64,000 bases of DNA, taken from positions 248,001 to 312,000 of the forward strand of contig NZ_JAIVLG010000001.1 in NCBI RefSeq assembly GCF_020524545.1, in the 5' to 3' direction. Below the pieces are notes generated by a model. That model had not been told where the DNA came from. It did not search any database and saw only the letters and a program-made list of their open reading frames with translations. Both the position numbers and the translations under genes were made by a program. Shown here in pieces: positions 377 to 22,117 of the stretch. Source of the stretch: Microbacterium paraoxydans. Lineage in GTDB: Bacteria > Actinomycetota > Actinomycetes > Actinomycetales > Microbacteriaceae. Within the stretch, counting starts at the first letter, position 1; each line of letters opens with the position of its first letter.

Positions 377-383
377 GCAACAA

Positions 384-397
384 ACCTAGCATTTGGT
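384..397. promoter_or_regulatory. KstR2-like operator, SDR/SDR divergent promoter
   Basis: ACCTAGCATTTGGT lies between divergent starts at 376 and 450. It differs from the KstR2 consensus AnCAAGnnCTTGnT at two positions, one of the weaker copies in the window. The extended context CCTAGCATTTGGTTGG is shared with the sites near 22058 and 22104. Confidence 0.6.
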
Positions 398-449
398 TGG
401 TAGCATGGACAGGCCGACGCACCGGAGCGTCGTGCAGTGAGGGGGCGGA

Positions 450-1265
450 ATGAGCCTGACGTTGGATTTCGCGGGCAAGGTGGTCGCGGTCACCGGTGGC
501 GGACGCGGCGTCGGACGCGGCGTGGTCGAGGCCTTCCTGGATGCCGGCGCCGAGGTCGAGTTCTGCGGACGCACCGAGCCGGAGAGACTGCCGGAGCGCG
601 ATGGCCGCACTGCGTCGTTCCGCGGCGTCGACGTGCGCGACGCCGCACAGAACGAGGCCTGGGTCGCGGGCATCGCCGAGCGACACGGACGCCTCGACGT
701 GCTCGTGAACAACGTCGGCGGATCCCCGTTCGGCCGCTTCGAAGCGGGTTCTCCTCGCTACTTCCAGGCGATCACCGAGATCAACTTCCTCTCCGCCGCG
801 GTCGCGACCCGCGCAGCCTTCGCGCCGCTGCGGGAAGCATCAGGCAGCGTGATCAACATCACCTCCATCAGCGCCCGTCGGCCCAGCCCCGGCACGGCCG
901 TCTACGGCGCGGCGAAGGCGGCGCTCGAGAGCCTGACCCGCAGCCTCGCGGTCGAGTGGGCCCCGCAGATCCGGGTCAATGCGGTCAGCAGCGGGCTGGT
1001 GCACACCGAGAGCGCGGTCGACCACTACGGCACCCCGGAGCAGTACGCCCAGATCGCGCGCACGGTCCCGCGCGGGCGCCTCGCCTCCCCTCGGGAACTC
1101 GGCACCGTCTGCGTCATGCTCGCCTCGCCACTCTCAGCGCATGTCACCGGTGCCGTCGTCCCCGTCGACGGTGGTGGCGAGTGGCCCGCCTTCCTCACCC
1201 ACACTCCGAACGCGGACATCGTGCAACAGGCCGACCGCGACATCACCGAAGGATCCCTCTCATGA
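450..1265 (+). CDS. SDR family oxidoreductase
   Basis: 271-residue classical short-chain dehydrogenase. The cofactor motif TGGGRGVGRG is near residues 16-25, NNVGG follows, and the active-site tetrad is seen as Ser in the INITSIS stretch and YGAAK. The start at 450 follows a G-rich ribosome site (gggggcgga). The stop overlaps the start of the thiolase at 1262 (ATGA), so the two are co-translated. In this regulon it probably oxidises a 3-hydroxyacyl-CoA before thiolysis, or a ring hydroxyl group. That role is inference from the adjacent thiolase. Confidence 0.9.
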   Translation: MSLTLDFAGKVVAVTGGGRGVGRGVVEAFLDAGAEVEFCGRTEPERLPERDGRTASFRGVDVRDAAQNEAWVAGIAERHGRLDVLVNNVGGSPFGRFEAGSPRYFQAITEINFLSAAVATRAAFAPLREASGSVINITSISARRPSPGTAVYGAAKAALESLTRSLAVEWAPQIRVNAVSSGLVHTESAVDHYGTPEQYAQIARTVPRGRLASPRELGTVCVMLASPLSAHVTGAVVPVDGGGEWPAFLTHTPNADIVQQADRDITEGSLS

Positions 1266-2482
1266 CCGAAGCCGTCATCGTCTCCGCCGTGCGCTCGCCC
1301 ATCGGCCGCGCGTTCAAGGGCAGCCTGAAGGACATGCGCGGTGACGACCTCGCCACGCAGATGGTGCGGGCGGCCGTCGATGCGGTGCCGGGGCTCGACC
1401 CGGACGAGATCGTCGACCTCATGGTGGGCTGCGCGCAGCCGGCGGGCCAGCAGGGCTACAACATCGGGCGGATGCTGGCGCTGCAGCTCGGCTGGGACAC
1501 CGTGCCCGGCACCACGGTCAACCGCTACTGCGCCTCCTCGTTGCAGACCACCCGGATGGCCTTCCACGCCATCCGAGCCGGCGAGGGCGAGGTCTTCGTA
1601 TCCGCCGGTGTCGAGGCCGTGTCGCAGTTCGGCTCCGGGAAGTCCGACGGCATGCCCGACACCAAGAACCCGCGCTGGGCCGACGCCGCGGCGCGCACGG
1701 CACGTGAGGCGCAGGACCCGGACTTCATCTGGTCGGACCCTCGGGCGCGGGGCGAGCTCGAGGACATCTACATCGCGATGGGGGAGACCGCCGAGAACGT
1801 GGCATCCTTCCGCGGAGTGTCCCGTCATGAGCAGGACGAGTGGGCGGTTCTCAGCCAGAACCGGGCCGAGGCTGCGGCCGCTCGGGGGTTCTGGGACACC
1901 GACATCACGCCGGTGCGCCTGGCCGACGGCACGCTCGTCACGGAGGACGACGGTCCCCGTGCAGGGGTCACGCTGGAGGGCATCAGCGGCATGCAGCCGG
2001 TGTTCCGTCCGCACGGCACCGTGACTGCGGCGAACTGCTGTCCGCTCAACGACGGTGCCGCCGCGCTCGTGATCATGAGCGACACCCGTGCCGCCGAGCT
2101 CGGGCTCACTCCGCTCGCGCGCATCGTGTCGACGGGGGTCTCGGCGCTGTCGGCGGAGATCATGGGCCTCGGCCCGGTGCAGGCGGTCGAGCGCGCGCTG
2201 GCGCATGCGCGCATGAGCATCGGCGACATCGACATCCTCGAGATCAACGAGGCCTTCGCGGCCCAGGTCATCCCCTCGGTCGCCGACATCGGGATCGACC
2301 CGGATCGCGTCAACGTCAACGGCGGCGCGATCGCTCTCGGTCATCCGTACGGCATGACCGGCGCACGCATCACGACCACCGCGATCAACGCCCTGCGTGA
2401 GCGCGACGAGCAGTTCGCGGTCGAGACCATGTGCACCGCCGGCGGGCAGGGCATGGCCATGGTCCTCGAGCGCCTGAGCTGA
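1262..2482 (+). CDS. thiolase family protein (acetyl-CoA acetyltransferase)
   Basis: 406-residue degradative thiolase. The acyl-accepting Cys is C90 in NRYCASS, NEAF and GGAIALGHP give the catalytic Asn and His, and the second Cys is in MCTAGGQG near the C-terminus. It should release acetyl- or propionyl-CoA from 3-ketoacyl-CoA. It overlaps the upstream SDR by four bases and ends in a large hairpin convergent with the acyl-CoA ligase. It is a second thiolase beside the FadA6-like one at 17319; which step each serves is not decidable here. Confidence 0.92.
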   Translation: MTEAVIVSAVRSPIGRAFKGSLKDMRGDDLATQMVRAAVDAVPGLDPDEIVDLMVGCAQPAGQQGYNIGRMLALQLGWDTVPGTTVNRYCASSLQTTRMAFHAIRAGEGEVFVSAGVEAVSQFGSGKSDGMPDTKNPRWADAAARTAREAQDPDFIWSDPRARGELEDIYIAMGETAENVASFRGVSRHEQDEWAVLSQNRAEAAAARGFWDTDITPVRLADGTLVTEDDGPRAGVTLEGISGMQPVFRPHGTVTAANCCPLNDGAAALVIMSDTRAAELGLTPLARIVSTGVSALSAEIMGLGPVQAVERALAHARMSIGDIDILEINEAFAAQVIPSVADIGIDPDRVNVNGGAIALGHPYGMTGARITTTAINALRERDEQFAVETMCTAGGQGMAMVLERLS

Positions 2483-2494
2483 CGCCCTCCCGCG

Positions 2495-2558
2495 GCGTTG
2501 CGGGTGCGAAAACGCGCCTCCCGGTGTCCGAGGAGGCGCGTTTCTGCGCTCGCAACGC
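2495..2558. terminator. bidirectional terminator-like palindrome
   Basis: Two 26-nt arms, starting GCGTTGCGGG and ending CTCGCAACGC, pair with four mismatches around a loop of about 12 nt. The outer core AAACGCGCCT/AGGCGCGTTT also occurs in the repeats near 25396 and 41425. It lies in the gap between convergent thiolase and ligase genes. Confidence 0.7.
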
Positions 2559-2573: not shown

Positions 2574-4175
2574 TCAGGCCTGTGCGCGCAGTTCGGACTT
2601 GAGGATCTTGCCGGTGGCGTTGCGAGGGAAGTCCTCCACGAAGACGAACTCCCGCGGCACCTTGAAGTTCGCCAGGTGCGCGCGGCAGAACGCCTCGAGC
2701 TCGGCGGCGTCGGGGCGCGGATCCGCGTTGTGCAGCAGCAGGACGTAGGCGCGGCCCACCGTGCCGAGGCGGTCGTCGTCGACGCCGATCACGGCGGATT
2801 CGTTCACCGCAGGATGCTTGCGCAACGCATTCTCGACCTCGGCGGGATAGACGTTGAAGCCGCCCACGATGAACATGTCCTTCAGGCGGTCGGTGATCTT
2901 CAGGCAGCCGTGCTCGTCGAGGCGACCGACGTCTCCGGTGTGGAACCATCCGTCCGGGTCGAGCACGGCATCCGTCGCCTCCTGATCCTCGAAGTAGCCG
3001 AGCATCACGTTGGGGCCGCGGAGCAGGATCTCCCCGTCCGTGTCGATGCCGGTATCCGTGCCCTCCTCGTCCACGACGCGGATCTCGACACCCTCCACCG
3101 CGGGTCCGGTCGTCTGCGCGGTGTGTTCGAGGGATTCGCCGGGGCGGGAGAGCGTGGCCACCACGCACTCGGTGAGACCGTACGCCTGGGCGACCGTCTC
3201 GAATCCGAGGACGTTCACCATGTCGTGGAACAGCGTCGCGGGAGCCGCCGTGGCACCGGCGATCGCGAACCGCAGCGACGACAGGTCGTACTCGCCCAGC
3301 CGCGGGTGGTCGAGCAGCGACGTGAAGATGGTCGGGACGCCGGGCAGCACGCTGATGCGGGCGGACTGCACGAGTTCGAGCAGCCGGTCGGCGTCGAAGA
3401 CGGCGAGAGGATAGATCGTCGTGCCGGCCATGAGCGAGGTGATCATGCCGGCCTTGTAGCCGAACCCGTGGAAGAAGGGGTTCACGACCGCGTACCGGTC
3501 GTCGGGGGTCAGGCGCGCGCCGAGACCCCACGCACGTGCCACCGAGAGGGTCTGCCGGTGCGCGCTGAGCACGCCCTTCGGGACGCCGGTCGTGCCCGAG
3601 GTGAAGAGCACGTCCATGATGTCGTCCCCGGTCACGGCATCCGCCGCGGCGGACACGCGGTCGTCGCCGACCGTGGCACCGGCGGCGAGGAAGCCCGCCC
3701 AGGGGAGGATGTCGTCGCCGCCCGTGCCGTCGATGGCGACGACCGTGCGCAGGTGGGGGAGTCCGGGGAAGATCGGGCCGTCACCACCGCGCTCGGCCGC
3801 GGCTGCGCGCAGCATGGAACTGTACGACTTGCCGAGGAACCCGTCGGTGAGCACCAGTCCTGTGGCGCGGGAGCGGGCCAGGATCTCGGCGGCCTCATGC
3901 CCGGTGAAGCGGGTGTTGAGCGGGACGACGGCGATGCCGATCAGCTGTGCGCCCAGCATCGCGAGGATGAACTCGTGCCGGTTCGGGGCCCACAGCCCGA
4001 CGCGATCGCCCGGTTCGATGCCCTGTGCGAGGTACGCGCCGGCGACGAGGCGGACCCGATCCTGCAGTTCGGCGTAGCCGATGACCACGTCTCCGTCGAC
4101 GATGGCCGGATGCGCGCCGAGGGCAGCCATCTCGGAGAGCAGGGCGGGCACTGTCGTGGCTTTCGAGACTGTCAT
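2574..4175 (-). CDS. fadD3: acyl-CoA synthetase, FadD3-like (HIP-CoA ligase)
   Basis: 533-residue AMP-forming acyl-CoA ligase of the ANL superfamily. The P-loop FTSGTTGVPKG is near residues 190-200 and the C-terminal catalytic Lys is in NATGKILKS. FadD3 activates the propionate side chain of HIP (3aα-H-4α(3'-propanoate)-7aβ-methylhexahydro-1,5-indanedione) as the first step of C/D-ring catabolism. Assignment rests on the divergent kstR2-like repressor, the operator between them and the rest of the ipd cluster. ATG at 4175 is preceded by GGAAAGGA at good spacing, so the longer upstream reading is rejected. Other medium/long-chain ligases look similar; HIP specificity is inferred. Confidence 0.82.
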   Translation of the reverse strand: MTVSKATTVPALLSEMAALGAHPAIVDGDVVIGYAELQDRVRLVAGAYLAQGIEPGDRVGLWAPNRHEFILAMLGAQLIGIAVVPLNTRFTGHEAAEILARSRATGLVLTDGFLGKSYSSMLRAAAAERGGDGPIFPGLPHLRTVVAIDGTGGDDILPWAGFLAAGATVGDDRVSAAADAVTGDDIMDVLFTSGTTGVPKGVLSAHRQTLSVARAWGLGARLTPDDRYAVVNPFFHGFGYKAGMITSLMAGTTIYPLAVFDADRLLELVQSARISVLPGVPTIFTSLLDHPRLGEYDLSSLRFAIAGATAAPATLFHDMVNVLGFETVAQAYGLTECVVATLSRPGESLEHTAQTTGPAVEGVEIRVVDEEGTDTGIDTDGEILLRGPNVMLGYFEDQEATDAVLDPDGWFHTGDVGRLDEHGCLKITDRLKDMFIVGGFNVYPAEVENALRKHPAVNESAVIGVDDDRLGTVGRAYVLLLHNADPRPDAAELEAFCRAHLANFKVPREFVFVEDFPRNATGKILKSELRAQA

Positions 4176-4248
4176 GGACGTCCTTTCCAATATCATGCGT
4201 ACACTCCGAGTGGATGTTTCGGGAAAACGCTCACGTGCGGCACACTTG

Positions 4249-4262
4249 AACAAGCGCTTGTG
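4249..4262. promoter_or_regulatory. KstR2-like operator, fadD3/kstR2 divergent promoter
   Basis: AACAAGCGCTTGTG matches the KstR2 consensus AnCAAGnnCTTGnT at every defined position except the last. It lies 23 bases upstream of the tetR start and 73 bases upstream of fadD3, a position expected for autoregulation. It is one of the closest consensus matches in the window. Confidence 0.78.
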
Positions 4263-4285
4263 AGATTCTCTGTGAAGGAGCAGCA

Positions 4286-4897
4286 ATGGCAACGACCAAA
4301 AGCGGGGGGCGGCAGGAGCAGAGCTCCGAACGCCGCGACCAGATCATCTCGATCGCCGCGCGCCTGATCGCCAAGCGCGGATACTCCGCCACGACGGTCC
4401 GAGACATCGCCGACGAAGCGGGGATCCTGTCGGGGAGCCTGTACCACCACTTCTCTTCCAAGGAAGCGATCCTGCAGGAGATCCTCCACAGCTTCATGGC
4501 TGGCCTGCTGGGTCGCTTCGAGGAGATCGTGGCCGAGGGGGGAAGCCCCCGTGACATCCTCGACAAACTGATCGCGCACGCCTTCGCCACGATCGAGAGC
4601 CAGCCCGATGCGGTCGGTCTGTACCAGAACGAGCTGTCCTTCCTCGCCCGCCAGCCCGGTTTCGAGTTCCTCGGAGAGAACAGCGAGCGCATCGAGGCGC
4701 TCTGGTTGGCGCAGATCACCGAGGGGCAGAAGGTCGGCGTGTTCCGCGACTCGATCGATGCTCCGATCGCCTATCGCTTCATCCGTGACGCTGTCTGGTC
4801 GACCGTCGCCTGGTACCGGCCCGGCCGCGGTCACACCGCGTCGACCCTGACCGACAACTTCCTGGATCTGCTCCACAAGGGCCTCCTCGCCGACTGA
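4286..4897 (+). CDS. kstR2: TetR/AcrR regulator, KstR2-like repressor
   Basis: 203 residues, as usual for TetR proteins (mycobacterial KstR2 is about 200). The N-terminal helix-turn-helix spans roughly residues 13-63 (RDQIISIAARLI through LYHHFSSKEAIL), followed by an all-helical ligand domain. KstR2 represses HIP-catabolic genes and is released by HIP-CoA; by analogy this protein should bind the palindromes found upstream of the operons of this island, including its own. The ribosome site AAGGAG precedes ATG 4286. It converges with ipdB, 12 bases away. Identity as KstR2 is inferred from context and operator sequence. Confidence 0.82.
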   Translation: MATTKSGGRQEQSSERRDQIISIAARLIAKRGYSATTVRDIADEAGILSGSLYHHFSSKEAILQEILHSFMAGLLGRFEEIVAEGGSPRDILDKLIAHAFATIESQPDAVGLYQNELSFLARQPGFEFLGENSERIEALWLAQITEGQKVGVFRDSIDAPIAYRFIRDAVWSTVAWYRPGRGHTASTLTDNFLDLLHKGLLAD

Positions 4898-4909: not shown

Positions 4910-5701
4910 TCAGTCCGCGACTTCGCGCGTGCGCATGCCGCGGGGGTCGAGGACCTCGCGGATCAGACGCAGCTCCTCGGCGTCGGGTACGCGAGTGAGC
5001 GGCGCCGACGACGCGTCGAGGGCGAACCCCGTGCTGTCCGTCACCGTCTGCGGATCGACGCCGGGGTGGACGGAGAGCACGGTCACGGCGCCCGCGTCGT
5101 CGTAGCCCAGCACGGCGAGGTTCGTCACGATCACGCCGAGGCGGTGGTGATCGAGTCCCGCCTCGCGGGCACGGTCGTTGCCGACACCCGAGACCATGTC
5201 GACGGACGGGACGAACACGCGCGGGCTGTGGCGGGCGATCCAGTAGTCCACCCTGTGGTTCGCGGTGTTGCCCGGTGCCCCGCGCACCCCGATGAGCTGA
5301 CGGGTGGGTCGTGCCCAGTCGCCGATGAGGGAGATGTTCTGGTTGCCGAAGCGGTCGATCTGGCTGGCGCCCATCATGCTCTGACGTCTCCCGGTGGCGA
5401 GGATGTCGAAGATGCGGCGGAACGGCGCCCAGCCCTCGACCGTCGGGCGCGGAGCGTCCGCGTCGCCCGGCTGCGGTGGGCCGCTCAGGAAGAAGGCCTC
5501 GCCGTCGCTGAGGACGAGGTCGGGAGCGGTCGTGAGCTTCGCGAGGCGCGCGCCGAGCGAGGGGACGATGCCCACCGCGTGCGCGAGGATCTCGCCCGAC
5601 TCGCGGTAGGTGTCGGCGCAGGCCGCGATGCAGATCTCGGCGATGGTCGCCGGCGCGGTGTCGACGCCGGTCGCGGTCACGGTGGTGGTGTCGGTGCTCA
5701 T
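4910..5701 (-). CDS. ipdB: CoA-transferase beta subunit, IpdB-like (copy 1)
   Basis: 263-residue CoA-transferase-fold protein. IpdB pairs with IpdA as a hydrolase-type CoA-transferase homologue that opens the last steroid ring (COCHEA-CoA) in mycobacteria and rhodococci. The MGASQIDRFGNQNIS and YWIARHSPRVF stretches are shared with the second copy at 19655. Relative to copy 2 it has a longer N-terminus (STDTTTVTATGVDTAP). Its ATG overlaps the ipdA stop (ATGA). A paralogous pair in the same island is unusual. Confidence 0.85.
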   Translation of the reverse strand: MSTDTTTVTATGVDTAPATIAEICIAACADTYRESGEILAHAVGIVPSLGARLAKLTTAPDLVLSDGEAFFLSGPPQPGDADAPRPTVEGWAPFRRIFDILATGRRQSMMGASQIDRFGNQNISLIGDWARPTRQLIGVRGAPGNTANHRVDYWIARHSPRVFVPSVDMVSGVGNDRAREAGLDHHRLGVIVTNLAVLGYDDAGAVTVLSVHPGVDPQTVTDSTGFALDASSAPLTRVPDAEELRLIREVLDPRGMRTREVAD

Positions 5702-6564
5702 GACGCTCCTCGGTCGGCGTGGAAGCGGGCGACGGCGGCGTGGTATCCGGCCTCGTCGGTGTGCAGGAAGGTGCGCTCGAACGCGGCCCAGGCGTCGGGA
5801 TCCTTCGCCGCCGTCGCATAGTGCTTCTGGAAGGCCTCGTCGCGCTCGTAGTCGGGAGCGCACGTGGTGAAGTGCGCGCCGCGAGGCGCCTCGACGACGG
5901 CCGAGGCGAAGATGCGGCTGAACAGCAGGGTGTGGAAGGAGCCCTCGTCGAGGAGTGCCGACGTCGGAACGACCTTCTCCGCGGAGACGATGGTGCGGCT
6001 CGCCGCCATCGCGAACAGGTCGTCGAAGTACGGGTCGGGGCCCAGGTACTGCGCGTTGCCCTGCTCGTCGGCGCGGTTCACGTGCACGAGGGCGACGTCG
6101 AGGGGCAGCGCCGGCATGGCGACGTACTCCGCGTCGGAGTAGGGGGAGCGCACGGTGCGCAGGCGCGGGTTCGCCGGGAGGACGTCCGATCCGAGTCCCG
6201 CACGGATCGGGAGGAAGTCGAGCCGTGCGCCGGCGGCGCGGAGTCCCGCGACGAACATGCCCTCGTCGTACTCCTCGATCTCCAGCTCGCCGCGCTCCCT
6301 CGCCCGGGTGAAGAGCGGGTCGAGGGGGATGCTGTCCAGTGAGACGAATCCGTACACCAGGCGGCGGATGCGGCCGGCCGCGGCGAGCAGACCGACGTCG
6401 GGGCCGCCGAACGCGACGACGGTGAGGTCGGTGATGTCCCGTCGCAGGATCTCGCGCACGAGCGCCATGGGCTTGCGCCGCGAGCCCCACCCGCCGATGC
6501 CGATCGTCATCCCGCTCTCGATGGTGGCGACCGCCTCCTCGATGCTCACCCGCTTGTCCGACAT
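5698..6564 (-). CDS. ipdA: CoA-transferase alpha subunit, IpdA-like (copy 1)
   Basis: 288 residues, close to mycobacterial IpdA. Conserved stretches include GIGGWGSRRKPMALVR (residues 22-37), GFVSLDS and EYDEGM; Glu101 of DEGM lies where the catalytic Glu of IpdA is expected. The C-terminal GAHFTTCAPDYERDE region also resembles mycobacterial IpdA, from memory more than copy 2 does. I chose ATG 6564 because AAGGAGCGGGG precedes it; two upstream ATGs (6579, 6585) lack a ribosome site. First gene of a two-gene operon behind the operator at 6590. Confidence 0.86.
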   Translation of the reverse strand: MSDKRVSIEEAVATIESGMTIGIGGWGSRRKPMALVREILRRDITDLTVVAFGGPDVGLLAAAGRIRRLVYGFVSLDSIPLDPLFTRARERGELEIEEYDEGMFVAGLRAAGARLDFLPIRAGLGSDVLPANPRLRTVRSPYSDAEYVAMPALPLDVALVHVNRADEQGNAQYLGPDPYFDDLFAMAASRTIVSAEKVVPTSALLDEGSFHTLLFSRIFASAVVEAPRGAHFTTCAPDYERDEAFQKHYATAAKDPDAWAAFERTFLHTDEAGYHAAVARFHADRGAS

Positions 6565-6589
6565 CCCCGCTCCTTTGCGCATCACGCTA

Positions 6590-6603
6590 ACCTAGCGCTT
6601 GTT
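6590..6603. promoter_or_regulatory. KstR2-like operator, ipdA1/SDR divergent promoter
   Basis: ACCTAGCGCTTGTT matches AnCAAGnnCTTGnT at all defined positions but one (T for A at position 4). It lies between the ipdA copy 1 start (6564) and the SDR start (6654). Confidence 0.75.
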
Positions 6604-6653
6604 TGGGAATCACAGTAGCATGCCCGAGAGGACGAACAGCGAGGGAGCTGCGC

Positions 6654-7376
6654 ATGGCCGGAGAGACGATGGCGGAGCACGTGGTGGTCACCGGCGGTGC
6701 CAGCGGGATCGGGGCGGCCGTGGTCGATCTGCTCCTCGGCCGTGGATGTCGAGTGACGGTCTTCGACCTCGCCCCCAGCGCCCGCTCGGACGTCGAGTCC
6801 GAGATCGTCGACCTGCGCGATGACGCCGCCGTCGAAGCCGCCATGGCCAGGACCTGGGAGCGCGGAGCAGCGGGAGGACTGGTCGCCTGCCACGGCATCC
6901 GCGGCGCCTTCGTCCCCGCTCTCGAGATCGACCTCGACCGCGTCCGCCGGCTCTACGACGTGCACGTGGTCGGCACCCTCGCGGTCTCCCGCGCGCTGGT
7001 GCGACGCCTGGAGGGGGCGCCGGCCTCGATCGTGCTGGTGTCGTCGACCACCGCGTACCGGGGCTGGGCGAACCAGGCCGACTACGGGCCCGCAAAGGCG
7101 GCGGAACGTCAGCTGATGGAGAATCTCGCCGTGGAGTGGGCTCCGCTCGGCGTGCGCGTGAATGCGGTCGCACCCGGCCACACCCTCACCCCCATGGTGC
7201 AGGACCTGGTCGACGGCGGGTACGACCTCACGGCGGTCGAGCGCCGGACGCCGCGCGGGCGCCTCGCCGACCCTGCAGAGATCGCCGCCGCGATCGTGTG
7301 GCTCCTCCGCGACGCGAGTCACGTGATCGGGCAGTGTCTTCCCGTCGACGGCGGATGGACGGTCGTGGGGCGATGA
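6654..7376 (+). CDS. SDR family oxidoreductase
   Basis: 240-residue short-chain dehydrogenase with TGGASGIG near the N-terminus and catalytic Ser/Tyr/Lys in VLVSSTTA and YGPAK. The usual NNAG motif is replaced by ACHGIRG, an uncommon variant. ATG 6654 has GGGAG six bases upstream; a second ATG at 6669 is possible. First gene of an operon with the aldo/keto reductase, overlapping it by four bases. Likely acts on a ring-fragment alcohol or ketone; the substrate is unknown. Confidence 0.88.
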   Translation: MAGETMAEHVVVTGGASGIGAAVVDLLLGRGCRVTVFDLAPSARSDVESEIVDLRDDAAVEAAMARTWERGAAGGLVACHGIRGAFVPALEIDLDRVRRLYDVHVVGTLAVSRALVRRLEGAPASIVLVSSTTAYRGWANQADYGPAKAAERQLMENLAVEWAPLGVRVNAVAPGHTLTPMVQDLVDGGYDLTAVERRTPRGRLADPAEIAAAIVWLLRDASHVIGQCLPVDGGWTVVGR

Positions 7377-8679: not shown

Positions 8680-8697
8680 CCTGTCTCCTTTGACTCA

Positions 8698-8711: not shown

Positions 8712-8735
8712 CAGCAACTATCGCGGAGGAACCCC

Positions 8736-15216: not shown

Positions 15217-15250
15217 GACGGGTTCCTCTCTGAACTCCAGCAGTCAACCA

Positions 15251-15264: not shown

Positions 15265-15346
15265 TTATTGATACTATACGTGAACGGCCCTCCGAAGACC
15301 ACGTCGAACGGCGGCGCCGGAGATGATGACTCGATGAGGAGCACAC

Positions 15347-16513
15347 ATGGATGCGACGCCGCACGATGCGGATGAGCGGTTCCGCGCCGAGATCCGCGGA
15401 TGGCTGGAGGAGAACCTCACCGGCCGCTTCGCCGAGCTGCGCGGACGCGGAGGCTCCGGCCGCGAGCACGAGGACTTCGAGGCGCGGCTGGAATGGAATC
15501 GGCACATGGCGGCCGCCGGCTGGACGTGTGTCGCCTGGCCGGTCGAACACGGCGGGCGCGGGCTCAGCATCGCGCAGCAGGTCATCTTCCACGAGGAGTA
15601 TGCGAAGGCGGATGCTCCCGCTCGAGTGAACCACCTCGGCGAAGAGCTGCTCGGACCGACCCTCATCGCTCACGGCACGGCGGAGCAGCAGGCGCGGTTC
15701 CTCCCCGGCATCGTCGCGGTCGAGGAGCTGTGGTGCCAGGGGTATTCCGAGCCCGGAGCGGGATCGGACCTCGCCGCCGTGTCGACCAAGGCGCAGCGCA
15801 TCGGGGACGAGTGGTCGATCACGGGGCAGAAGGTGTGGACCTCGCTCGCCCAGCACGCCGACTGGTGCTTCGTGATCGCGCGCACCGAACCGGGATCCGT
15901 CCGCCATCAAGGGCTGTCCTACCTTCTCGTGCCGATGGATCAGCCCGGGGTCGAGGTGCGACCCATCCTGCAGTTGACCGCGACGAGCGAGTTCAACGAG
16001 GTGTTCTTCGACGACGCCAGGACACGGTCCGACCTGGTCGTCGGCGGTGAGGGCAACGGCTTCAGGGTCGCGATGGCCACGCTCGGCTTCGAGCGGGGCG
16101 TGTCGACCCTCGCCCAGCAGATCGCGTTCCGGCGCGAGCTGGATGCGGTGATCGAGACGGCCACGCGCACCGGCGCCATCGACGACGCGGTGCTCCGCGA
16201 TCGACTGGTGCGTGCTCGCATGGACCTCGAGGTGATCCGGCAGCACGCTCTGCGCACGCTCGGCGGCGAACAGGGCGACGGAGCCTCGGTGGCCAAGCTG
16301 CTGTGGTCGAACTGGCACCGCTCCCTCGGCGAGCTCGCGATGGACGTCGCCGGCCCCGAAGCCCTCCTCGTCGGTGCCGACTATGCGCTCGACGACCTGC
16401 AGACGCTGTTCCTGTTCAGCCGCTCCGACACGATCTACGGCGGCTCGGATGAGATCCAGCGCAACGTCATCGCCGAGCGCGTGCTCGGCCTTCCCCGAGA
16501 GGCCCGCCCATGA
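15347..16513 (+). CDS. fadE30: acyl-CoA dehydrogenase, FadE30-like
   Basis: 388-residue acyl-CoA dehydrogenase (mycobacterial FadE30 is about 385). QGYSEPGAGSDLAAVST and EWSITGQKVWTSLA mark the FAD/substrate domain; TIYGGSDEIQRNVIAERVLGLPRE closes the protein. FadE30 desaturates the HIP-CoA side chain after FadD3 activation. The order fadE30-ipdF, with fadA6 close by, matches the KstR2 regulon of M. tuberculosis. The ribosome site GAGGAG precedes ATG 15347, and the stop overlaps ipdF. Confidence 0.86.
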   Translation: MDATPHDADERFRAEIRGWLEENLTGRFAELRGRGGSGREHEDFEARLEWNRHMAAAGWTCVAWPVEHGGRGLSIAQQVIFHEEYAKADAPARVNHLGEELLGPTLIAHGTAEQQARFLPGIVAVEELWCQGYSEPGAGSDLAAVSTKAQRIGDEWSITGQKVWTSLAQHADWCFVIARTEPGSVRHQGLSYLLVPMDQPGVEVRPILQLTATSEFNEVFFDDARTRSDLVVGGEGNGFRVAMATLGFERGVSTLAQQIAFRRELDAVIETATRTGAIDDAVLRDRLVRARMDLEVIRQHALRTLGGEQGDGASVAKLLWSNWHRSLGELAMDVAGPEALLVGADYALDDLQTLFLFSRSDTIYGGSDEIQRNVIAERVLGLPREARP

Positions 16514-17298
16514 GCGCCACCGCCCCCGAGTACGTCCCCGGCCACGATCTGCTGAACGGGAAGCGCGTCGTGATCACGGCCGCGGCCGGCGCCGGCATCG
16601 GGCAGGCCGCCGCGATCCGCTGCCTGGAGGAAGGCGCCGCGCTCGTCGTGCTCGGCGACACGCACGCGGGTCGACTCGCCACGACCCAGCAGGAGCTCGG
16701 CGACCGCTTCGGCGCCGACCGTGTGCGCACCGCCGTCTGCGATGTGACGGACGAGGAGCAGATCGCCGCCTTCCTCGACCTGGCCGAAGACGGCGGTCCG
16801 ATCGACGTCATGATCAACAACGCCGGACTCGGCGGATCGGTGTCGATCCTGGATATGACCGACGAGCAGTGGGGAACGGTGCTCGACGTGACCCTCACCG
16901 GCACGTTCCGCTGCATCCGCGCGGTCGGTCGGCGCATGGTGGCAGCCGGCACCGCCGGGATCATCGTGAACAACGCCTCCGTGATCGGCTGGCGCGCACA
17001 GGTCGAGCAGGCGCACTACGCCGCGGCGAAGGCCGGAGTGATGGCGCTCACCCGCAGCGCCGCGATGGATCTCGCCCCGCACGGCATCCGCGTCAACGCG
17101 GTCTCGCCGAGCCTGGCGATGCATCCGTTCCTCGAGAAGGTCACCTCGCCCGAGCTGCTCGAGCAGCTCAAGGCCCGTGAGGCGTTCGGGCGCGCGGCAG
17201 AACCCTGGGAGGTCGCCAACGTCATGGTGTTCCTCGCCAGCGCATACTCCTCCTATATGACCGGCGAGGTCGTCGCCGTCAGCAGTCAGCACGCGTGA
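16510..17298 (+). CDS. ipdF: SDR, IpdF-like 5-hydroxy-HIC-CoA dehydrogenase
   Basis: 262 residues, the same length as M. tuberculosis IpdF. It starts with GHDLLNGKRVVITAAAGAGIG and has NNAGLGG, IIVNNASVIGWRAQ, YAAAK and the C-terminal AFGRAAEPWEVA and SYMTGEVVAVSSQH, all of which I recognise from IpdF. IpdF oxidises the ring hydroxyl of 5-OH-HIC-CoA to HIEC-CoA, ahead of EchA20 ring opening. It overlaps fadE30 upstream and is followed 20 bases later by fadA6. This is one of the firmest assignments in the island. Confidence 0.9.
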   Translation: MSATAPEYVPGHDLLNGKRVVITAAAGAGIGQAAAIRCLEEGAALVVLGDTHAGRLATTQQELGDRFGADRVRTAVCDVTDEEQIAAFLDLAEDGGPIDVMINNAGLGGSVSILDMTDEQWGTVLDVTLTGTFRCIRAVGRRMVAAGTAGIIVNNASVIGWRAQVEQAHYAAAKAGVMALTRSAAMDLAPHGIRVNAVSPSLAMHPFLEKVTSPELLEQLKAREAFGRAAEPWEVANVMVFLASAYSSYMTGEVVAVSSQHA

Positions 17299-17318
17299 GT
17301 TCAGAGAGAAGGAAGAAC

Positions 17319-18470
17319 ATGGCAGAGGCATACATCGTCGATGCGGTCCGCTCGCCCGTCGGCAAGCGCGGCGGCTCGCTCTCGGGCATCCACCCGGCCG
17401 ACCTCGGTGCGCACAGTCTGAAGGCGCTGGTCGAGCGCACCGGTATCGACCCCGGCGCTCTCGACGACGTGATCATCGGCGCGACCGACACGATCGGCGG
17501 ACAGGCGGGCAACGTCGGCCGCTCAGCCGTCCTGGTGGCGGGTTTCCCCGAGCACGTGCCGGGCGTCACGATCGACCGGCAGTGCGGGTCGAGCCAGCAG
17601 GCCGTCCACTTCGCGGCGCAGGCGGTCATGAGCGGCACCAACGACCTGGTGATCGCGGGCGGATTGCAGAACATGTCGCAGCTGCCGATCTCGTCGGCCA
17701 TGGTCGCGGGGGAGGCGTACGGCTTCACGACGCCCTTCGCCGAGTCGCCCGGGTGGCAGGCCCGCTACCCCGACCAGGAGATCTCGCAGTTCGTCGGCGC
17801 GGAGATGATCGCCGAGAAGTGGGACATCACGCGCGAGGAGATGGAGCAGTTCGCGCTCGAGAGCCACCGGCGCGCGGCGTTGGCCCAGGACGAGGGGCGC
17901 TTCGCGAACGAGATCGTGCCGCTGAACGGCCTCGACCACGATGAGGGCGTGCGCCGCGACACCTCGCTGGAGCGCATGGCGGGGCTCGCGACCCTGACCC
18001 CGGGCGGGCGGCTGACCGCGGCCGTGGCCTCGCAGATCAGCGACGCCTCCAGCGCGGTGCTGGTCGCGAGCGCGCAGGCTGTGAAGGACCACGGACTCAC
18101 GCCCCGGGCCCGCATCCACCACCTGTCGGTGCGCGGGGACAGCCCGGTTTTCATGCTCACCGCCCCGATCCCCGCGACTCACTACGCCATGGAGCGTTCA
18201 GGCATGAGCCTCGACGACATCGACCTGTTCGAGGTCAACGAGGCCTTCGCCTCGGTCGTGCTCGCCTGGCTGCGGGAGACCGGGGTGCCGCGCGAGAAGC
18301 TCAACGTCAACGGCGGTGGCATCGCGCTGGGGCACCCGATCGGTGCGACCGGAACGCGGCTCATGACCACGCTGTTGAACGAGCTGGAGCGCACCGGCGG
18401 ACGCTACGGCATGCAGGTCATGTGCGAGGGCGGAGGCCTGGCGAACGCCACGATCATCGAGCGGCTCTGA
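17319..18470 (+). CDS. fadA6: thiolase, FadA6-like
   Basis: 383-residue thiolase (mycobacterial FadA6 386). C89 in RQCGSSQQA is the nucleophile; NEAFAS, GGGIALGHPIGATG and CEGGGLA supply the Asn, His and second Cys. FadA6 is the thiolase of the HIP pathway, cleaving the opened-ring keto-acyl-CoA. ATG 17319 has AGAAGGA at proper spacing; an upstream in-frame start at 17295 overlapping ipdF is less likely. The gene ends in a strong palindrome before convergent ipdC. Confidence 0.88.
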   Translation: MAEAYIVDAVRSPVGKRGGSLSGIHPADLGAHSLKALVERTGIDPGALDDVIIGATDTIGGQAGNVGRSAVLVAGFPEHVPGVTIDRQCGSSQQAVHFAAQAVMSGTNDLVIAGGLQNMSQLPISSAMVAGEAYGFTTPFAESPGWQARYPDQEISQFVGAEMIAEKWDITREEMEQFALESHRRAALAQDEGRFANEIVPLNGLDHDEGVRRDTSLERMAGLATLTPGGRLTAAVASQISDASSAVLVASAQAVKDHGLTPRARIHHLSVRGDSPVFMLTAPIPATHYAMERSGMSLDDIDLFEVNEAFASVVLAWLRETGVPREKLNVNGGGIALGHPIGATGTRLMTTLLNELERTGGRYGMQVMCEGGGLANATIIERL

Positions 18471-18584: not shown

Positions 18585-19658
18585 TCAGGGCAGGAGGCAG
18601 GAGGCGGCGGCGCGGAGGTGCTCCGCGGCATCGCGCACCACGCGATCGACGAGCTCCTCACAGCTGGGCAGGTCGTCGATCATGCCGACCACCTGGCCCG
18701 CCGCGAGCATTCCCGCCTGGGTGTCACCGTCGACGAGGCCGGCTTTCAGGAGCATCGGGGTGTTGGCGGCGAGGGTCATCTGCGTCCAGGAGCGCCCCGT
18801 CGCCTTCTTCATCGAGACGGCGTCCTTGACCAGCTGCGGCCAGCTCAGCCCGGACAGCTTCTTGAACTCGAGCGAGCGGCGCAGCGTCGGGCCGAGTCGG
18901 GAGAGCCCGCCCCTGCCCTCGAGGCCCTCGACGAACTCTGTGCGCAGCAGCCGGTGCGGCATGCCGTCGGCCTTCGTGGTCACGACCGTGCCGTCCAGTC
19001 CGAAACCGAGGTAGCGCTGCTTGATCGCCTCCGGCACGGCACTGTCGCTCGTGAGCAGGAACCGCGTTCCCATCCCGACGCCCGCGGCACCGTAGGCGAG
19101 CGCGGCGGCGAGGCCTCGGCCGTCGTGGAAACCACCGGCCGCGATGACCGGGATGTCGACTGCGGCGACGACGGAGGGCAGCAGGATCGAGGTGGGCACG
19201 GCGCCGGTGTGCCCACCGCCCTCACCGCCCTGCACCATCACTGCATCCGCGCCCCAGGCGGCGACCTTCTCGGCATGACGCACCGCACCGATCGAGGGGA
19301 TGACCACCACGTCGTTCTCCTTGAGGCGCTCGATGAGTTCGCGACGGGGAGCGAGGGCGAAGCTCGCCACCTTGACACCGTGACGGATCAGCAGCTCGAC
19401 GCGCTCGGCGGCGTCGCCCGCGTCCGCTCGCAGGTTCACCCCGAACGGGCGGTCGGTGCGCTCGGTGACCTCGACGATCTGTCGTTCGAGCTCGTCGTAC
19501 GTCATGGTCGCCGACGCCAGGATTCCGAGAGCGCCGGCCTGCGCCGTGGCGGTGACCAGACGAGCACCGGCGACCCAGCCCATGCCGGTCTGCACGATCG
19601 GATGGTCGACGCCCGTGAGTCGGGTCAGGGGTGTGGCCAGCTGCGGGGGCGTGGTCAT
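18585..19658 (-). CDS. ipdC: nitronate-monooxygenase-type flavoprotein, IpdC-like
   Basis: 357-residue FMN TIM-barrel protein of the nitronate monooxygenase/2-nitropropane dioxygenase family. VQTGMGWVAGARL starts the barrel, GGEGGGHTG binds the phosphate region, and AAGGFHDGRGLAAALAYGA is the later FMN loop. IpdC is a flavin-dependent reductase needed with IpdAB for the last ring. The gene order echA20-ipdA-ipdB-ipdC is identical to Rv3550-Rv3553, which supports this over a nitroalkane role. ATG overlaps the ipdB stop. Confidence 0.88.
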   Translation of the reverse strand: MTTPPQLATPLTRLTGVDHPIVQTGMGWVAGARLVTATAQAGALGILASATMTYDELERQIVEVTERTDRPFGVNLRADAGDAAERVELLIRHGVKVASFALAPRRELIERLKENDVVVIPSIGAVRHAEKVAAWGADAVMVQGGEGGGHTGAVPTSILLPSVVAAVDIPVIAAGGFHDGRGLAAALAYGAAGVGMGTRFLLTSDSAVPEAIKQRYLGFGLDGTVVTTKADGMPHRLLRTEFVEGLEGRGGLSRLGPTLRRSLEFKKLSGLSWPQLVKDAVSMKKATGRSWTQMTLAANTPMLLKAGLVDGDTQAGMLAAGQVVGMIDDLPSCEELVDRVVRDAAEHLRAAASCLLP

Positions 19659-20404
19659 GATGCGGTCACCTCTCGGTCGCGGAGTCCGCGCGGATCCAGA
19701 CGCTCGCGCACGAGCGTGAGCTCCTCGTCGGTGGGGAGCCGGGTCTCAGAGACCGCGGCAGGGATGTGCAGGTCGAAACCGGTGGCCGTGGTGACCTGAT
19801 CGAGCGTCACACCGGGGTGGAGGCTCACGAGTGCGAGGCTGCCGTCCGGGCCGGTGAAATCGAGCACCGCCAGGTCGGTGACGATGCGCCGAAGGTCCTG
19901 GAAGCGGTCTGCTCCGGCGGCCCGTGCCCGGGACGGGCCGACTCCCGTGACCACATCGACCCGCTCCACGAACACCCGGGGGCTGTGCCGCGCGATCCAG
20001 TAGCTGGTGGCGTGGCTGACCGTGTTCGTCGCGGCGGCGCGAGCGCCCAGCAGCTGCCGGAGGGGGCGGTCGCGCTCGCCGATCGCGGACAGGTTCTGGT
20101 CGCCATGCCGGTCGATCTGGGCTGCTCCCATGACCACGTGGCGGCGGCCTCGGGCGATCATCTCGAACAGGCGCGCATAGGGGAGGGGGGCCTCCGGCGC
20201 GTCGAACGGCTCGTCCACGGCGGGGGTGTCGGCGTACAGCGTGGCCTCGCCGTCGCTGAGCAGCAGCTCGGGGGCGTGCGTGAGTCGCGCCAGCCGGGCA
20301 CCGATCGTCGGGACAGTGCCGACGGCGCTGGCGAGGATGGTGCCGGCACCACGGAACAGATCGCTGCAGGCCGCGACGGCGACCTCGGCGCGGGTGGCGG
20401 TCAT
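19655..20404 (-). CDS. ipdB: CoA-transferase beta subunit, IpdB-like (copy 2)
   Basis: 249 residues, as for mycobacterial IpdB (250). It shares MGAAQIDRHGDQNLSAIG and SYWIARHSPRVFVERVD with copy 1 and ends RLDPRGLRDREV. It lies in the syntenic operon with ipdA, ipdC and echA20, overlapping both partners by four bases, and should form the IpdAB hetero-oligomer. Overall it has diverged visibly from copy 1; which pair cleaves COCHEA-CoA is open. Confidence 0.86.
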   Translation of the reverse strand: MTATRAEVAVAACSDLFRGAGTILASAVGTVPTIGARLARLTHAPELLLSDGEATLYADTPAVDEPFDAPEAPLPYARLFEMIARGRRHVVMGAAQIDRHGDQNLSAIGERDRPLRQLLGARAAATNTVSHATSYWIARHSPRVFVERVDVVTGVGPSRARAAGADRFQDLRRIVTDLAVLDFTGPDGSLALVSLHPGVTLDQVTTATGFDLHIPAAVSETRLPTDEELTLVRERLDPRGLRDREVTAS

Positions 20405-21267
20405 GCGATCTGCTCCGCGTGGAAGGCGGTGACGGTCGCGCGGTAGGTCTCGTCGTCGACGTCGAGGAACCGGGCACGGAACGCGGCCCAGGCGTCGGGT
20501 GACGCGGCGGCCTCGACGTACGCCCGCTGCAGCCGCTCGTCGCGGGAAGAATGCGGAGGGTGGGCCGTGAACCCGGCGCCGCCCGGCGCCACGACGATCG
20601 CGTCCGTGAGCGTGGGATCGAGGACGGACGCCGTGGGTCCGGCACCGGCGAGGAGCTCGGCCGCATCGACCAGGGCTTCCACGCTCACGACGGTGCGGGC
20701 TGCGGCGCCCGCGAACAGGTCGTCGAAGTAGAGGTCGGGGCCGAGGCAGACCGTCGTCCCCGCGGCGTCCGCGCGGTCGAGATGCAGCAGCGCGAGGTCG
20801 AGCGGCACCGCGGGCATCGCGACGAGCACCTCCGCATCGGCGTAGGGCGAGGTGATCGTGCGGACCTCCGGGTTGCGGGTCACGGCGTCGGAGCCCGCGC
20901 CGGACCGGGTGACCTCGAAGGGGAGTCTGCGCGATGCCGCACGGAGCCCGGCGATGAGCATCCCTTCGTCGTACTCGATGTTGCGCACGGCGCCCGACCG
21001 GCGCGCGGCCGCGAAGTGCGGATCGATCGCGATGCTGTCCAGCGACACGAACCCCTGAACGATCTCGGCGGCCTGTCCGGTGGCGCACAGGATGCCGACG
21101 TCGGGGCCGCCGAAGCTGACGATGCGCAGCCCGCGTGCGCCGGACCGCACGATCTGTCGTACCAGGGCCATCGGCTTGCGACGGGAGCCCCATCCGCCGA
21201 TCCCGATCGTCATGTCGTCGTGGATCAGCGATGCGACCTCCGCGGGAGAGGAGGCCACGACGCTCAT
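20401..21267 (-). CDS. ipdA: CoA-transferase alpha subunit, IpdA-like (copy 2)
   Basis: 288 residues, the same length as copy 1. It shares MTIGIGGWGSRRKPMALVR, GFVSLDS, PYFDDLF-like YFDDLF and EYDEGM with Glu101. It differs in the C-terminal half: copy 1 has GAHFTTCAPDYERDE where this copy has GAGFTAHPPHSSRDE, and the FLPIRAGLGS segment is FEVTRSGAGS here. Such changes near the expected CoA/substrate pocket suggest a different acyl chain. Start overlaps the echA20 stop. Confidence 0.86.
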   Translation of the reverse strand: MSVVASSPAEVASLIHDDMTIGIGGWGSRRKPMALVRQIVRSGARGLRIVSFGGPDVGILCATGQAAEIVQGFVSLDSIAIDPHFAAARRSGAVRNIEYDEGMLIAGLRAASRRLPFEVTRSGAGSDAVTRNPEVRTITSPYADAEVLVAMPAVPLDLALLHLDRADAAGTTVCLGPDLYFDDLFAGAAARTVVSVEALVDAAELLAGAGPTASVLDPTLTDAIVVAPGGAGFTAHPPHSSRDERLQRAYVEAAASPDAWAAFRARFLDVDDETYRATVTAFHAEQIA

Positions 21268-22022
21268 GTCGAGAGGTTCTCGCCGGTGGCGACGAAGGCG
21301 TCGCGATGCTGGTCGGCGACGCCGGCGAGGTTGAGCTCGAACGTGAAGCCCTGCTCGAACCGGTAGCTGCGGTTGACGTCGATCGGGTCGATGCCGTTCA
21401 AGGCCTCCTTGGCCGCCCGGATCACGCGCGGATCCTTGGCGGCGATCTCCTCGGCGATCGCGAGTGCGGTGGCGTCGAGCTCGGAGCGCGGGACGACCGC
21501 CGTCACCGACCCGAACTCCTCCAGTCGTCGCGCCGTGACGGTGCGACTCGTGTAGTACATCGAGCGCAGCATGTGCTGCGGAACGAGCCGCGACAGATGG
21601 GTCGCTGCGCCGAGAGCGCCACGGTCGACCTCGGGGACGCCGAAGGTCGCGTCCTCCGAGGCGACGATCACATCGCTGTTGCCGACGAGCCCGACCCCGC
21701 CGCCCAGGCAGAAGCCGTTGACCGCCGCGATCACGGGAACCGCGCACTCGTAGATCGCCTTGAAGGCCTCATAGCACCCGCGGTTCGCGCCGAGGATGCC
21801 CGAGAAGCCTTCGATGCGCTGCATCTCCTTGATGTCGACGCCCGCGTTGAAGCCTCGTCCCTCCGCGCGCAGCACCACGACGCGTGTCTCGGAATCGGTC
21901 GTGGCCTCGCGCATCGCCGCGGCGAGATCGAACCACCCGGCGACGGGCAGCGCGTTCACCGGCGGATAGTTCATCGTGACGGTGCGGACACCAGCAGGAT
22001 GCAGGGTGGAAGTGATCGTCAT
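21264..22022 (-). CDS. echA20: crotonase-family hydrolase, EchA20-like
   Basis: 252-residue crotonase-fold protein. Oxyanion loops are GRGFNAGVDIKEM and NGFCLGGGVGLVGNSD. The first hydratase Glu is Gly (GGGVGL) while the second acidic site GVPEVDRGALG is kept. EchA20 (247 residues) opens the five-membered ring of HIEC-CoA hydrolytically rather than hydrating an enoyl-CoA. It is the lead gene of the echA20-ipdA-ipdB-ipdC operon, with an SDR on the opposite strand as in M. tuberculosis (Rv3548c/Rv3549c). Confidence 0.88.
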   Translation of the reverse strand: MTITSTLHPAGVRTVTMNYPPVNALPVAGWFDLAAAMREATTDSETRVVVLRAEGRGFNAGVDIKEMQRIEGFSGILGANRGCYEAFKAIYECAVPVIAAVNGFCLGGGVGLVGNSDVIVASEDATFGVPEVDRGALGAATHLSRLVPQHMLRSMYYTSRTVTARRLEEFGSVTAVVPRSELDATALAIAEEIAAKDPRVIRAAKEALNGIDPIDVNRSYRFEQGFTFELNLAGVADQHRDAFVATGENLST

Positions 22023-22057
22023 CGGACACCTAACCTAACGTTTGCTCAAGGAACCCT

Positions 22058-22071
22058 AGCACTTGCTTGGT
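22058..22071. promoter_or_regulatory. KstR2-like operator, echA20 promoter side
   Basis: AGCACTTGCTTGGT has two mismatches to AnCAAGnnCTTGnT. It lies 36 bases upstream of echA20. An even weaker relative, AACGTTTGCTCAAG, is seen at 22037-22050. Together with the site at 22104 it makes this the only promoter region with two clear boxes. Confidence 0.62.
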
Positions 22072-22103
22072 TGACGTCGTAACCCCTTGCGGGCATTTGC
22101 CCT

Positions 22104-22117
22104 AGCAATTGCTTGGT
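22104..22117. promoter_or_regulatory. KstR2-like operator, SDR promoter side
   Basis: AGCAATTGCTTGGT has one mismatch to AnCAAGnnCTTGnT. It lies 73 bases upstream of the SDR at 22190 and shares CCTAGCA-TTGCTTGGTTG with the box at 22058, 46 bases away. Confidence 0.75.

Follow-up and report, generated by a model that had tools for sequence, protein, structure and literature searches.

A predicted KstR2-type regulon and ring-C/D steroid gene cluster in Microbacterium paraoxydans

A 64,000-nucleotide stretch of Microbacterium paraoxydans DNA (assembly GCF_020524545.1, contig NZ_JAIVLG010000001.1, positions 248,001 to 312,000 of the forward strand; hereafter the window, with positions counted from its first letter and contig positions prefixed C1) contains much of a putative steroid-catabolic cluster, in which a gene for a TetR-family protein of the KstR2 type lies among repeated copies of a KstR2-like operator. 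In full, the predicted regulon has ~40 genes in one 40-kb cluster, with 12 boxes spread over 10 promoter regions, 8 of them divergent, and a single KstR2-type regulator very probably controls these genes as a self-contained module for steroid rings C and D with its own predicted uptake. In the mechanism that we infer, the KstR2-type protein (4286-4897) would repress the ~40 genes through twelve copies of a 22-24 bp operator, HIP-CoA would be produced by the regulon's own FadD3-like ligase and, on building up, would act as the inducer and release KstR2 from its operators, and a LIV-type ABC transporter (C1:241688-246394) would import HIP or a related hydrindane acid. The module for the last two steroid rings would thereby have its own uptake and be uncoupled from the canonical ring-A/B pathway. 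HIP-CoA has been described as the KstR2 effector (PMC5380842, PMC6678751; here and below, PMC numbers refer to passages of the articles concerned).

Operator boxes and their regulator

An earlier note on this DNA had reported seven 14-mer boxes between divergent starts, with one or two mismatches each, and all seven were found, at 384 and 22058 with two mismatches and at 4249, 6590, 8698, 15251 and 22104 with one, every one of them between divergent genes. The window holds 24 matches to the 14-mer at up to two mismatches against 5.6 expected, and genome-wide at up to one mismatch there are 56 forward placements, with 144 for the reversed control. As a genome-wide test the 14-mer was rejected as too common. 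The specificity of the KstR2 boxes comes from the flanks, and such regulons are best sought with the full 22-24 bp KstR2 matrix, not with the 14-bp core. A symmetric 24-mer matrix was built from seven distinct sites of the nine printed in Table 3 of PMC3068626 (M. smegmatis, M. tuberculosis and R. jostii), with nothing from the M. paraoxydans genome, and C1:208001-312000 (104 kb) was scanned with it. The scan returned 12 separate sites scoring 17.6-31.3, among them all seven window boxes in the register of the earlier note. The window sites, to which no strand is assigned, are as follows.

379..402: predicted KstR2 operator between a short-chain dehydrogenase/reductase (SDR) gene (C1:247543-248376, minus strand) and the SDR/thiolase operon (plus strand), score 26.1
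4244..4267: predicted KstR2 operator between fadD3 and kstR2, score 18.6, core CAAGCGCTTG
6585..6608: predicted KstR2 operator between ipdA1 and an SDR gene, score 18.7
8693..8716: predicted KstR2 operator between a VOC gene and an SDR gene, score 19.3
15246..15269: predicted KstR2 operator between an enoyl-CoA hydratase (ECH) gene and fadE30, score 31.3
22053..22076: predicted KstR2 operator 1 between echA20 and an SDR gene, score 17.6
22099..22122: predicted KstR2 operator 2 between echA20 and an SDR gene, score 30.9

The ~17 kb that precede the window hold five further boxes, at C1:230961, 234805, 237481, 241579 and 241629, with scores of 17.9-21.7, below the best window sites; those at C1:230961 and C1:237481 are not between divergent starts. 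Many equally good matches at unrelated promoters, which the earlier note had named as evidence against a single regulon, were not seen. Scores peaked at 9.2 across twenty 20-kb stretches sampled from this genome (400 kb, ~11%), at 7.5 in window positions 26001-64000 and at 4.0 in C1:208001-230900, and no site of similar quality occurs in the ~460 kb scanned outside the 40-kb cluster. Within the scanned region nothing outside the 12 sites exceeds 7.5 except 4-bp-shifted echoes of those sites, which are put down to an internal CCAA/GCAA repeat of the half-site. An alternative register, offset by 4 bp and suggested by the 18-bp palindrome ACCAAGCAATTGCTTGGT, was dropped, as the published matrix prefers the register of the earlier note for all seven boxes. 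Similarly, when the whole genome is searched with up to two mismatches, the IUPAC pattern ACCWAGCNNTTGNTTGGT, for which the window's sites were the source, has 11 placements on 9 sites, 4 of them outside the window, and the published-type consensus ACCNANCAANNNCTTGNTNGGT has 5 placements on 4 sites, all for both patterns in C1:230962-270121; at three mismatches both also match elsewhere in the genome. That the boxes are chance or compositional matches, as the genome-wide abundance of the 14-mer alone might suggest, is extremely improbable given the background and footprint controls. In window positions 1-16000 a sigma-70 promoter scan gave 2 matches against a mean of 0.5 in shuffled sequence, one of which (minus strand, 4292-4265) touches the box before kstR2.

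The regulator gene is the following.

4286..4897, plus strand: KstR2-type TetR repressor (PDB 2ibd, 172 bits; KstR2 of M. tuberculosis, 4w97/4w1u, 156 bits; next match 76)

The 2ibd entry, named 'Possible transcriptional regulator', is taken here to be R. jostii KstR2. The recognition-helix block ATTVRD...AGILSGSLYHHF.SKE is invariant in 11 of 11 aligned KstR2-type proteins, and in that alignment the M. paraoxydans protein is 44% identical to the R. jostii segment and 41% identical to the M. tuberculosis segment. It is encoded by the single close KstR2-like gene of the genome (99.99% complete; next match 28% identical), and its nearest named relatives, at 96% and 94%, are from Microbacterium. 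The KstR2-5 motif YRFIRDTxW is present with one residue changed, as YRFIRDAVW. Residues R162 and W166 of KstR2, presumably ligand-binding, correspond to R167 and W171 here and are invariant in the 11 aligned proteins; the numbering follows the YRFIRDTTW motif at 158-166 (PMC13176608). The KstR2-3 signature [ED][DE][RM]N[RK][QE]QRK is absent from the protein, where the aligned stretch reads GENSERIEA; since this signature is reported only from Mycobacteriaceae (PMC13176608), it is a marker of the family and not of KstR2 function. By its sequence, the TetR protein is a KstR2 ortholog, in agreement with the single KstR2-like regulon that the earlier note had proposed. The box before its gene, also claimed there, lies 19 bp upstream, and autoregulation of kstR2 through it is predicted. 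Elsewhere, Microbacterium sp. Se63.02b has, ~32 kb away from its first KstR2-like regulator, a second one (L039, NZ_CP050453.1:3533602-3554129; 68% to the query) that lies near boxes, and a metagenome-assembled genome (MAG) carries one at 64% to the query (L021) with a box pattern similar to that of L039.

The earlier note had also suggested an operator specificity shifted from that of mycobacteria, and this part did not hold. The published operator of ~22 bp, ACCnAnCAAGnnCTTGnTnGGT, has the same flanks as the local sites, and published operators already carry flanks of the CCTAGCA...TTGGT type, for example TACCTAGCAAGTGCTTGGTAGGTT in R. jostii (PMC3068626). Between the local consensus, AACCAAGCAAgCGCTTGGTTGGca from 12 sites, and the published TACCAACCAAGCGCTTGCTTGGTt, the only differences fall at positions 7 and 18, which are variable, and at the ends; position 11 is weak. 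The case for a shift lies in the inner G and C: of the 12 local sites 2 have both, compared with 6 of the 7 published ones, so that 10 of 12 local sites lack one or both against 1 of 7. The published matrix nevertheless recovers all 12 local sites, the two consensuses are close, the recognition helix is invariant in the 11 aligned proteins, the box before kstR2 carries the complete CAAGCGCTTG core, and full-core sites stand at the same promoters in some Microbacteriaceae and Arthrobacter, so that a shifted specificity is highly unlikely. Across groups, the share of sites with both positions intact is 10/13 for Mycobacteriales, 15/37 (distinct sites) for Microbacteriaceae, 7/13 for Arthrobacter, 10/19 for Nocardioides and 18/33 for the other loci used (48 loci in all, with relatives' sites picked by the published matrix at a score of at least 15 and hence biased towards the published type). 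As far as the sites themselves indicate, the inner half-site is relaxed locally, and the variation across groups is a gradient and not a switch.

Gene content and extent of the predicted regulon

The predicted regulon includes 25 genes of the window and part of the SDR gene at 1-376. As the earlier note had observed, each of the twelve operons inferred from strand and spacing in 1-24785 starts at a box, the toxin-antitoxin pair excepted. Its figure of about 25 genes was borne out for the window, and its total of seven boxes proved incomplete, with five more boxes upstream and ~40 genes in all. The window genes, apart from kstR2, are listed below.

450..1265, plus strand: SDR oxidoreductase (NF005893, 309 bits, cut-off 255)
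1265..2482, plus strand: acetyl-CoA acyltransferase, a thiolase (NF005890, 701 bits, cut-off 580)
2574..4199 (start approximate), minus strand: FadD3-like acyl-CoA ligase, predicted HIP-CoA synthetase (NF005801 'FadD3 family', 625 bits, below the cut-off of 657; open reading frame (ORF) 2574-4292)
4910..5701, minus strand: IpdB1, beta subunit of a predicted ring hydrolase (PDB 6co6_B, 248 bits)
5698..6585, minus strand: IpdA1, alpha subunit of a predicted ring hydrolase (PDB 6co6_A, 337 bits)
6603..7376 (true start probably downstream of the box), plus strand: SDR oxidoreductase (SDR models)
7376..8248, plus strand: aldo/keto reductase (PF00248, 186 bits; ORF 7136-8248)
8242..8679, minus strand: VOC/glyoxalase-fold protein (PF13669, 37 bits)
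8703..9476 (true start probably downstream of the box), plus strand: SDR oxidoreductase (SDR models)
9476..10093, plus strand: PaaY/gamma-carbonic-anhydrase-like hexapeptide protein (TIGR02287, 243 bits, below the cut-off of 319.6)
11112..12221, minus strand: IpdE2-like acyl-CoA dehydrogenase (NF050027, 251 bits, below the cut-off of 450)
12222..13313 (start probably ~13190), minus strand: acyl-CoA dehydrogenase (NF050027, 121 bits, below cut-off)
13187..14350, minus strand: acyl-CoA dehydrogenase (Pfam acyl-CoA dehydrogenase domains)
14353..15216, minus strand: ECH (PF00378, 135 bits)
15347..16513, plus strand: FadE30-like acyl-CoA dehydrogenase (TIGR03204, 250 bits, below cut-off; 62-63% identity to Gordonia and Dietzia genes)
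16510..17298, plus strand: IpdF-like SDR (NF005880, 416 bits, cut-off 336)
17295..18470, plus strand: FadA6-like thiolase (NF005865, 672 bits, cut-off 591)
18585..19658, minus strand: IpdC-like FabK/nitronate monooxygenase-fold reductase (TIGR03151, 227 bits, below cut-off; 59-64% to Gordonia and Dietzia copies)
19655..20446, minus strand: IpdB2, second copy (CoA_trans PF01144, 24 bits, cut-off 23; ORF 19655-21193; synteny)
20401..21258, minus strand: IpdA2, second copy (PDB 6co6_A, 245 bits)
21264..22022, minus strand: EchA20-like hydratase (NF005925, 428 bits, cut-off 260)
22190..23092, plus strand: SDR, probably Rv3548c-like from 61% identity and position relative to Gordonia and Dietzia genes (PF00106, 142 bits)
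23137..23871, plus strand: MaoC/MFE-2 hydratase (PF01575, PF22622; ORF 22897-23871)
23868..24785, plus strand: NAD-dependent epimerase/dehydratase-fold protein (PF01370)

Genes of the FadD3, FadE30, IpdF, FadA6, IpdC, IpdAB and EchA20 types are all present behind boxes. The FadD3, IpdE2, FadE30 and IpdC models score below their curated cut-offs, and these assignments are supported by synteny and identity. Beyond the mycobacterial core, the window adds a second IpdAB pair, a thiolase, an aldo/keto reductase, a MaoC hydratase and VOC and PaaY-like proteins, in keeping with the earlier remark that several members fall outside the published mycobacterial set. The first-guess ORFs 1025-2344, 2341-3531, 4910-6490 and 7319-8698 were in the wrong frame or over-extended and had no family matches.

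A Phd/YefM-ParE toxin-antitoxin pair (10549-11093) sits in the catabolic island downstream of the 8693 box and on the same strand, and the count of ~40 genes leaves aside the stretch ~10093-10549 between the hexapeptide gene and this pair. The pair is matched in the Se63.02b locus L012 and has no match in the M. sufflavum locus L014. In the Se63.02b loci L012/L099 the fadD3, thiolase and ipdE2-like orthologs match only partially or distantly despite otherwise conserved synteny, possibly through frameshifts or assembly errors in that genome.

Upstream of the window, predicted members include an old yellow enzyme (OYE)-type FMN oxidoreductase, a major facilitator superfamily (MFS) transporter, a metallo-beta-lactamase (MBL)-fold hydrolase, a thioesterase and SnoaL-fold genes, together with the transporter listed here beside a neighbouring operon built around a Baeyer-Villiger monooxygenase (BVMO).

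C1:241688-246394: LIV-type ABC transporter (binding protein, LivH, fused LivM-LivG, LivF), with two boxes in front
C1:237553-239151: steroid-monooxygenase-like BVMO (591 bits to 4aos)
C1:237553-240728 (L010:9553-12728): BVMO, alpha/beta hydrolase and PadR regulator, the last at C1:240156

A single ORF (C1:243178-245682, L010:15178-17682) encodes the LivM-type permease and the LivG-type ATPase as a fusion, and it is matched along most of its length in Streptomyces antnestii (L025, 63%). The BVMO/hydrolase operon with PadR lies inside the cluster, has no KstR2 box and is left out of the ~40 genes; it possibly represents progesterone side-chain entry under its own control.

Boxes in related loci

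The footprint of the boxes was followed in 87 related loci, of which some overlap or share a genome, using homologs of at least 45% identity and counting as boxed those with a site scoring at least 15 within ~300 bp upstream. Among genes that stand first in their operons, a box was found before the SDR genes at 450 (31/33), 6603 (9/9) and C1:247543 (7/8), fadE30 (35/40), echA20 (19/26), kstR2 (27/41), fadD3 (25/36), the ECH gene at 14353 (22/34) and the transporter's substrate-binding protein gene (3/3). Most internal genes are rarely boxed, with 0/47 for ipdB1 and for ipdB2, 0/31 for the ipdE2-like gene, 0/6 for the aldo/keto reductase, 3/31 for ipdC, 1/24 and 1/34 for the two acyl-CoA dehydrogenases after the ipdE2-like gene, 1/35 for ipdF and 1/19 for the thiolase at 1265. 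The contrast between operon-first and internal genes is clear for most genes, not for all. The fadE30 genes of Gordonia and Dietzia are boxed in front as well, and the promoter orthologous to that at 379..402 carries a box in the 4 other Microbacterium loci inspected (L012, L013, L014 and L015). Similarly, the transporter promoter is boxed in two Microbacterium genomes (L098, L100) and in S. antnestii (L025), a footprint of 3 loci with the S. antnestii one at 49% identity. The BVMO, hydrolase and PadR genes have no box in relatives either (0/4, 0/4 and 0/3).

Substrate entry, alternative readings and known systems

Markers of the upper steroid pathway were looked for in the same genome. KshA (PF19298, KshA_C), expected in a complete 9,10-seco degrader, has no match there. 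Among 34 KstR2-bearing genomes (including G281 and G309, probably one genome), 22 have strong KshA matches (at least 272 bits), which serve as positive controls, 2 have weak ones (99-103 bits) and the other 10 lack one; all those from Microbacteriaceae (Microbacterium, Agromyces and Microcella, with G000, G102 and G281 assigned by kinship) are weak or without a match. KshA is also without a match in the MAG L021 and in Arthrobacter gandavensis L022, and in 299 sampled Microbacteriaceae genomes only one match exceeds 30 bits (G102, 99 bits). In that genome the KshA-type Rieske gene (G102:C1:1357149-1357775, L102) lies ~13 kb from the KstR2 gene, and M. resistens (G305) has one at 103 bits. For HsaC (TIGR03213), the best score in the M. 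paraoxydans genome is 65 bits, from the only gene that matches at E <= 0.001, which is an HpaD (431 bits); three other Microbacteriaceae score 64-67 bits, against 312-326 in Tsukamurella, Gordonia and Dietzia. For Mce/MlaD, a match is lacking in the M. paraoxydans genome, in 7 other Microbacteriaceae and in 2 Arthrobacter, and the 5 other genomes searched have one. The KstR2 locus itself is rare in the family, with 3 of the 299 sampled genomes, this one included, at E <= 1e-50 and none among the 5 other genomes of the genus listed in that sample (ten best candidates scored per genome).

Because a transporter is present and KshA, HsaC and Mce were not found, the substrate is suggested to arrive as HIP or a similar hydrindane acid, and cross-feeding is plausible since HIP has been called an extracellular metabolite in a review (PMC12507874). 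On this tentative reading, which may be correct, the KstR2 regulon of Microbacteriaceae would be a free-standing 'steroid-scraps' module that does not open rings A and B, imports HIP from other degraders through a KstR2-controlled LIV-type transporter and completes the breakdown of rings C and D with two IpdAB pairs, its hosts acting as dedicated second-stage mineralisation partners. If ring-A/B opening is truly absent, HIP cross-feeding between steroid degraders becomes a testable genetic prediction. A somewhat less likely alternative is a complete degrader that opens rings A and B non-canonically (for example by the estrogen 4,5-seco route or from progesterone via the BVMO), so that HIP would be made inside the cell and the transporter would take up whole steroids. 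The steroid monooxygenase relative at C1:237553-239151 (591 bits) with its neighbouring alpha/beta hydrolase, the Microbacterium strains reported in a review to transform 17beta-estradiol (PMC12507874) and the extra SDR, OYE and SnoaL-fold genes of the predicted regulon fit this alternative, and it is countered by the HpaD identity of the sole TIGR03213 match, by the lack of a KshA_C match in the genome and by the missing KstR2 boxes of the BVMO, hydrolase and PadR genes here and in relatives. It is unlikely, in turn, that only the core ring-C/D promoters of the window are targets and that the upstream boxes (transporter, MFS, MBL and SnoaL operons) are decayed, unused or bound by another regulator such as the PadR protein at C1:240156. 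Such a reduced regulon would agree with upstream scores of 17.9-21.7, under the best window sites, with the upstream genes having homologs of at least 45% identity in no more than 8 of the 87 loci, most of which may stop short of that region, and with the precedent of uninduced predicted sites in Nocardioides simplex (PMC7807495), but the background never exceeds 9.2 in 400 kb, Microbacterium sufflavum (L100, 4 promoters, one at 13.8) and Se63.02b (L098, 3 promoters) retain upstream boxes in the corresponding places, and the box at the binding-protein promoter is kept in S. antnestii.

Several observations weigh against a self-contained regulon of ~40 genes without a ring-A/B pathway. Some operon-first genes are less often boxed in the related loci, namely ipdA1 (15/47), the SDR genes at 22190 (3/29) and 8703 (6/11) and the VOC gene (5/10) in the window, and u2 at C1:230975 (1/5), the MFS (1/2) and MBL (1/6) genes and the SDR genes at C1:236724 (3/6) and C1:240769 (4/7) upstream. 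Two genes that are internal here are boxed elsewhere, fadA6 in 12/42 loci and ipdA2 in 12/46, the latter count including loci where ipdA2 matches the ipdA1-type copy; the 4HBT gene, also internal here, is boxed in 7/8 loci, and a different operon order in other genera is the likely source of the fadA6 and 4HBT boxes. Internal symmetry is modest in several boxes, with 3 of 7 core pairs at C1:241579 and C1:270053, and of the 29 N. simplex operons with a predicted KstR2 site phytosterol induced only 10 (PMC7807495). In addition, the upper-pathway negatives cover KshA, HsaC and Mce, while KstD, KshB, HsaA, HsaB and HsaD lay outside the search, as did dedicated models for AedA/AedB; a distant KshA-type Rieske gene occurs in two other KstR2-bearing Microbacteriaceae (99-103 bits), and the three HsaC positive controls (312-326 bits) themselves fall under the TIGR03213 cut-off of 366. 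The boxless BVMO and hydrolase operon hints at earlier steroid steps, and together with the reports of estradiol-transforming Microbacterium it allows a non-canonical upper pathway.

In the passages covered from the openly licensed literature, no report was found of a KstR2 regulon or HIP-only module in Microbacteriaceae, and no gene for HIP import was seen there. The 16 actinobacterial genera of steroid degraders listed in the passages of PMC4810484 include none of the Microbacteriaceae. The cluster described here would extend to this family a regulon studied mainly in mycobacteria and rhodococci, nearly triple its predicted size and name a candidate HIP importer. The KstR2 regulon of Mycobacterium and Rhodococcus shares with it the recognition helix, the 22-24 bp operator, the box before the regulator's own gene and the divergent boxes (Kendall 2010, PMC3068626), as well as fadD3-, fadE30-, ipdF-, fadA6-, ipdC-, ipdAB- and echA20-like genes and further acyl-CoA dehydrogenases. 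It differs in extent, with 3 promoter regions and 15 genes in mycobacteria (PMC3068626) against 12 boxes and ~40 predicted genes here, in the ipdAB duplication and the ABC importer, MFS, OYE, aldo/keto reductase, MaoC, SnoaL and further SDR genes found here, and in KshA and HsaC, which were not found in the M. paraoxydans genome. In N. simplex, KstR2 sites are likewise predicted in many operons (29), but that organism also has the upper sterol pathway (PMC7807495), whereas the boxes of M. paraoxydans form one contiguous 40-kb cluster. Similarly, Rhodococcus equi has a second ipdAB/fadA6 copy (PMC5380842) and hence, as here, a duplicated IpdAB in its ring-C/D gene set, while in this member of the Microbacteriaceae both ipdAB copies share a single cluster and each belongs to an operon beginning at a KstR2 box.

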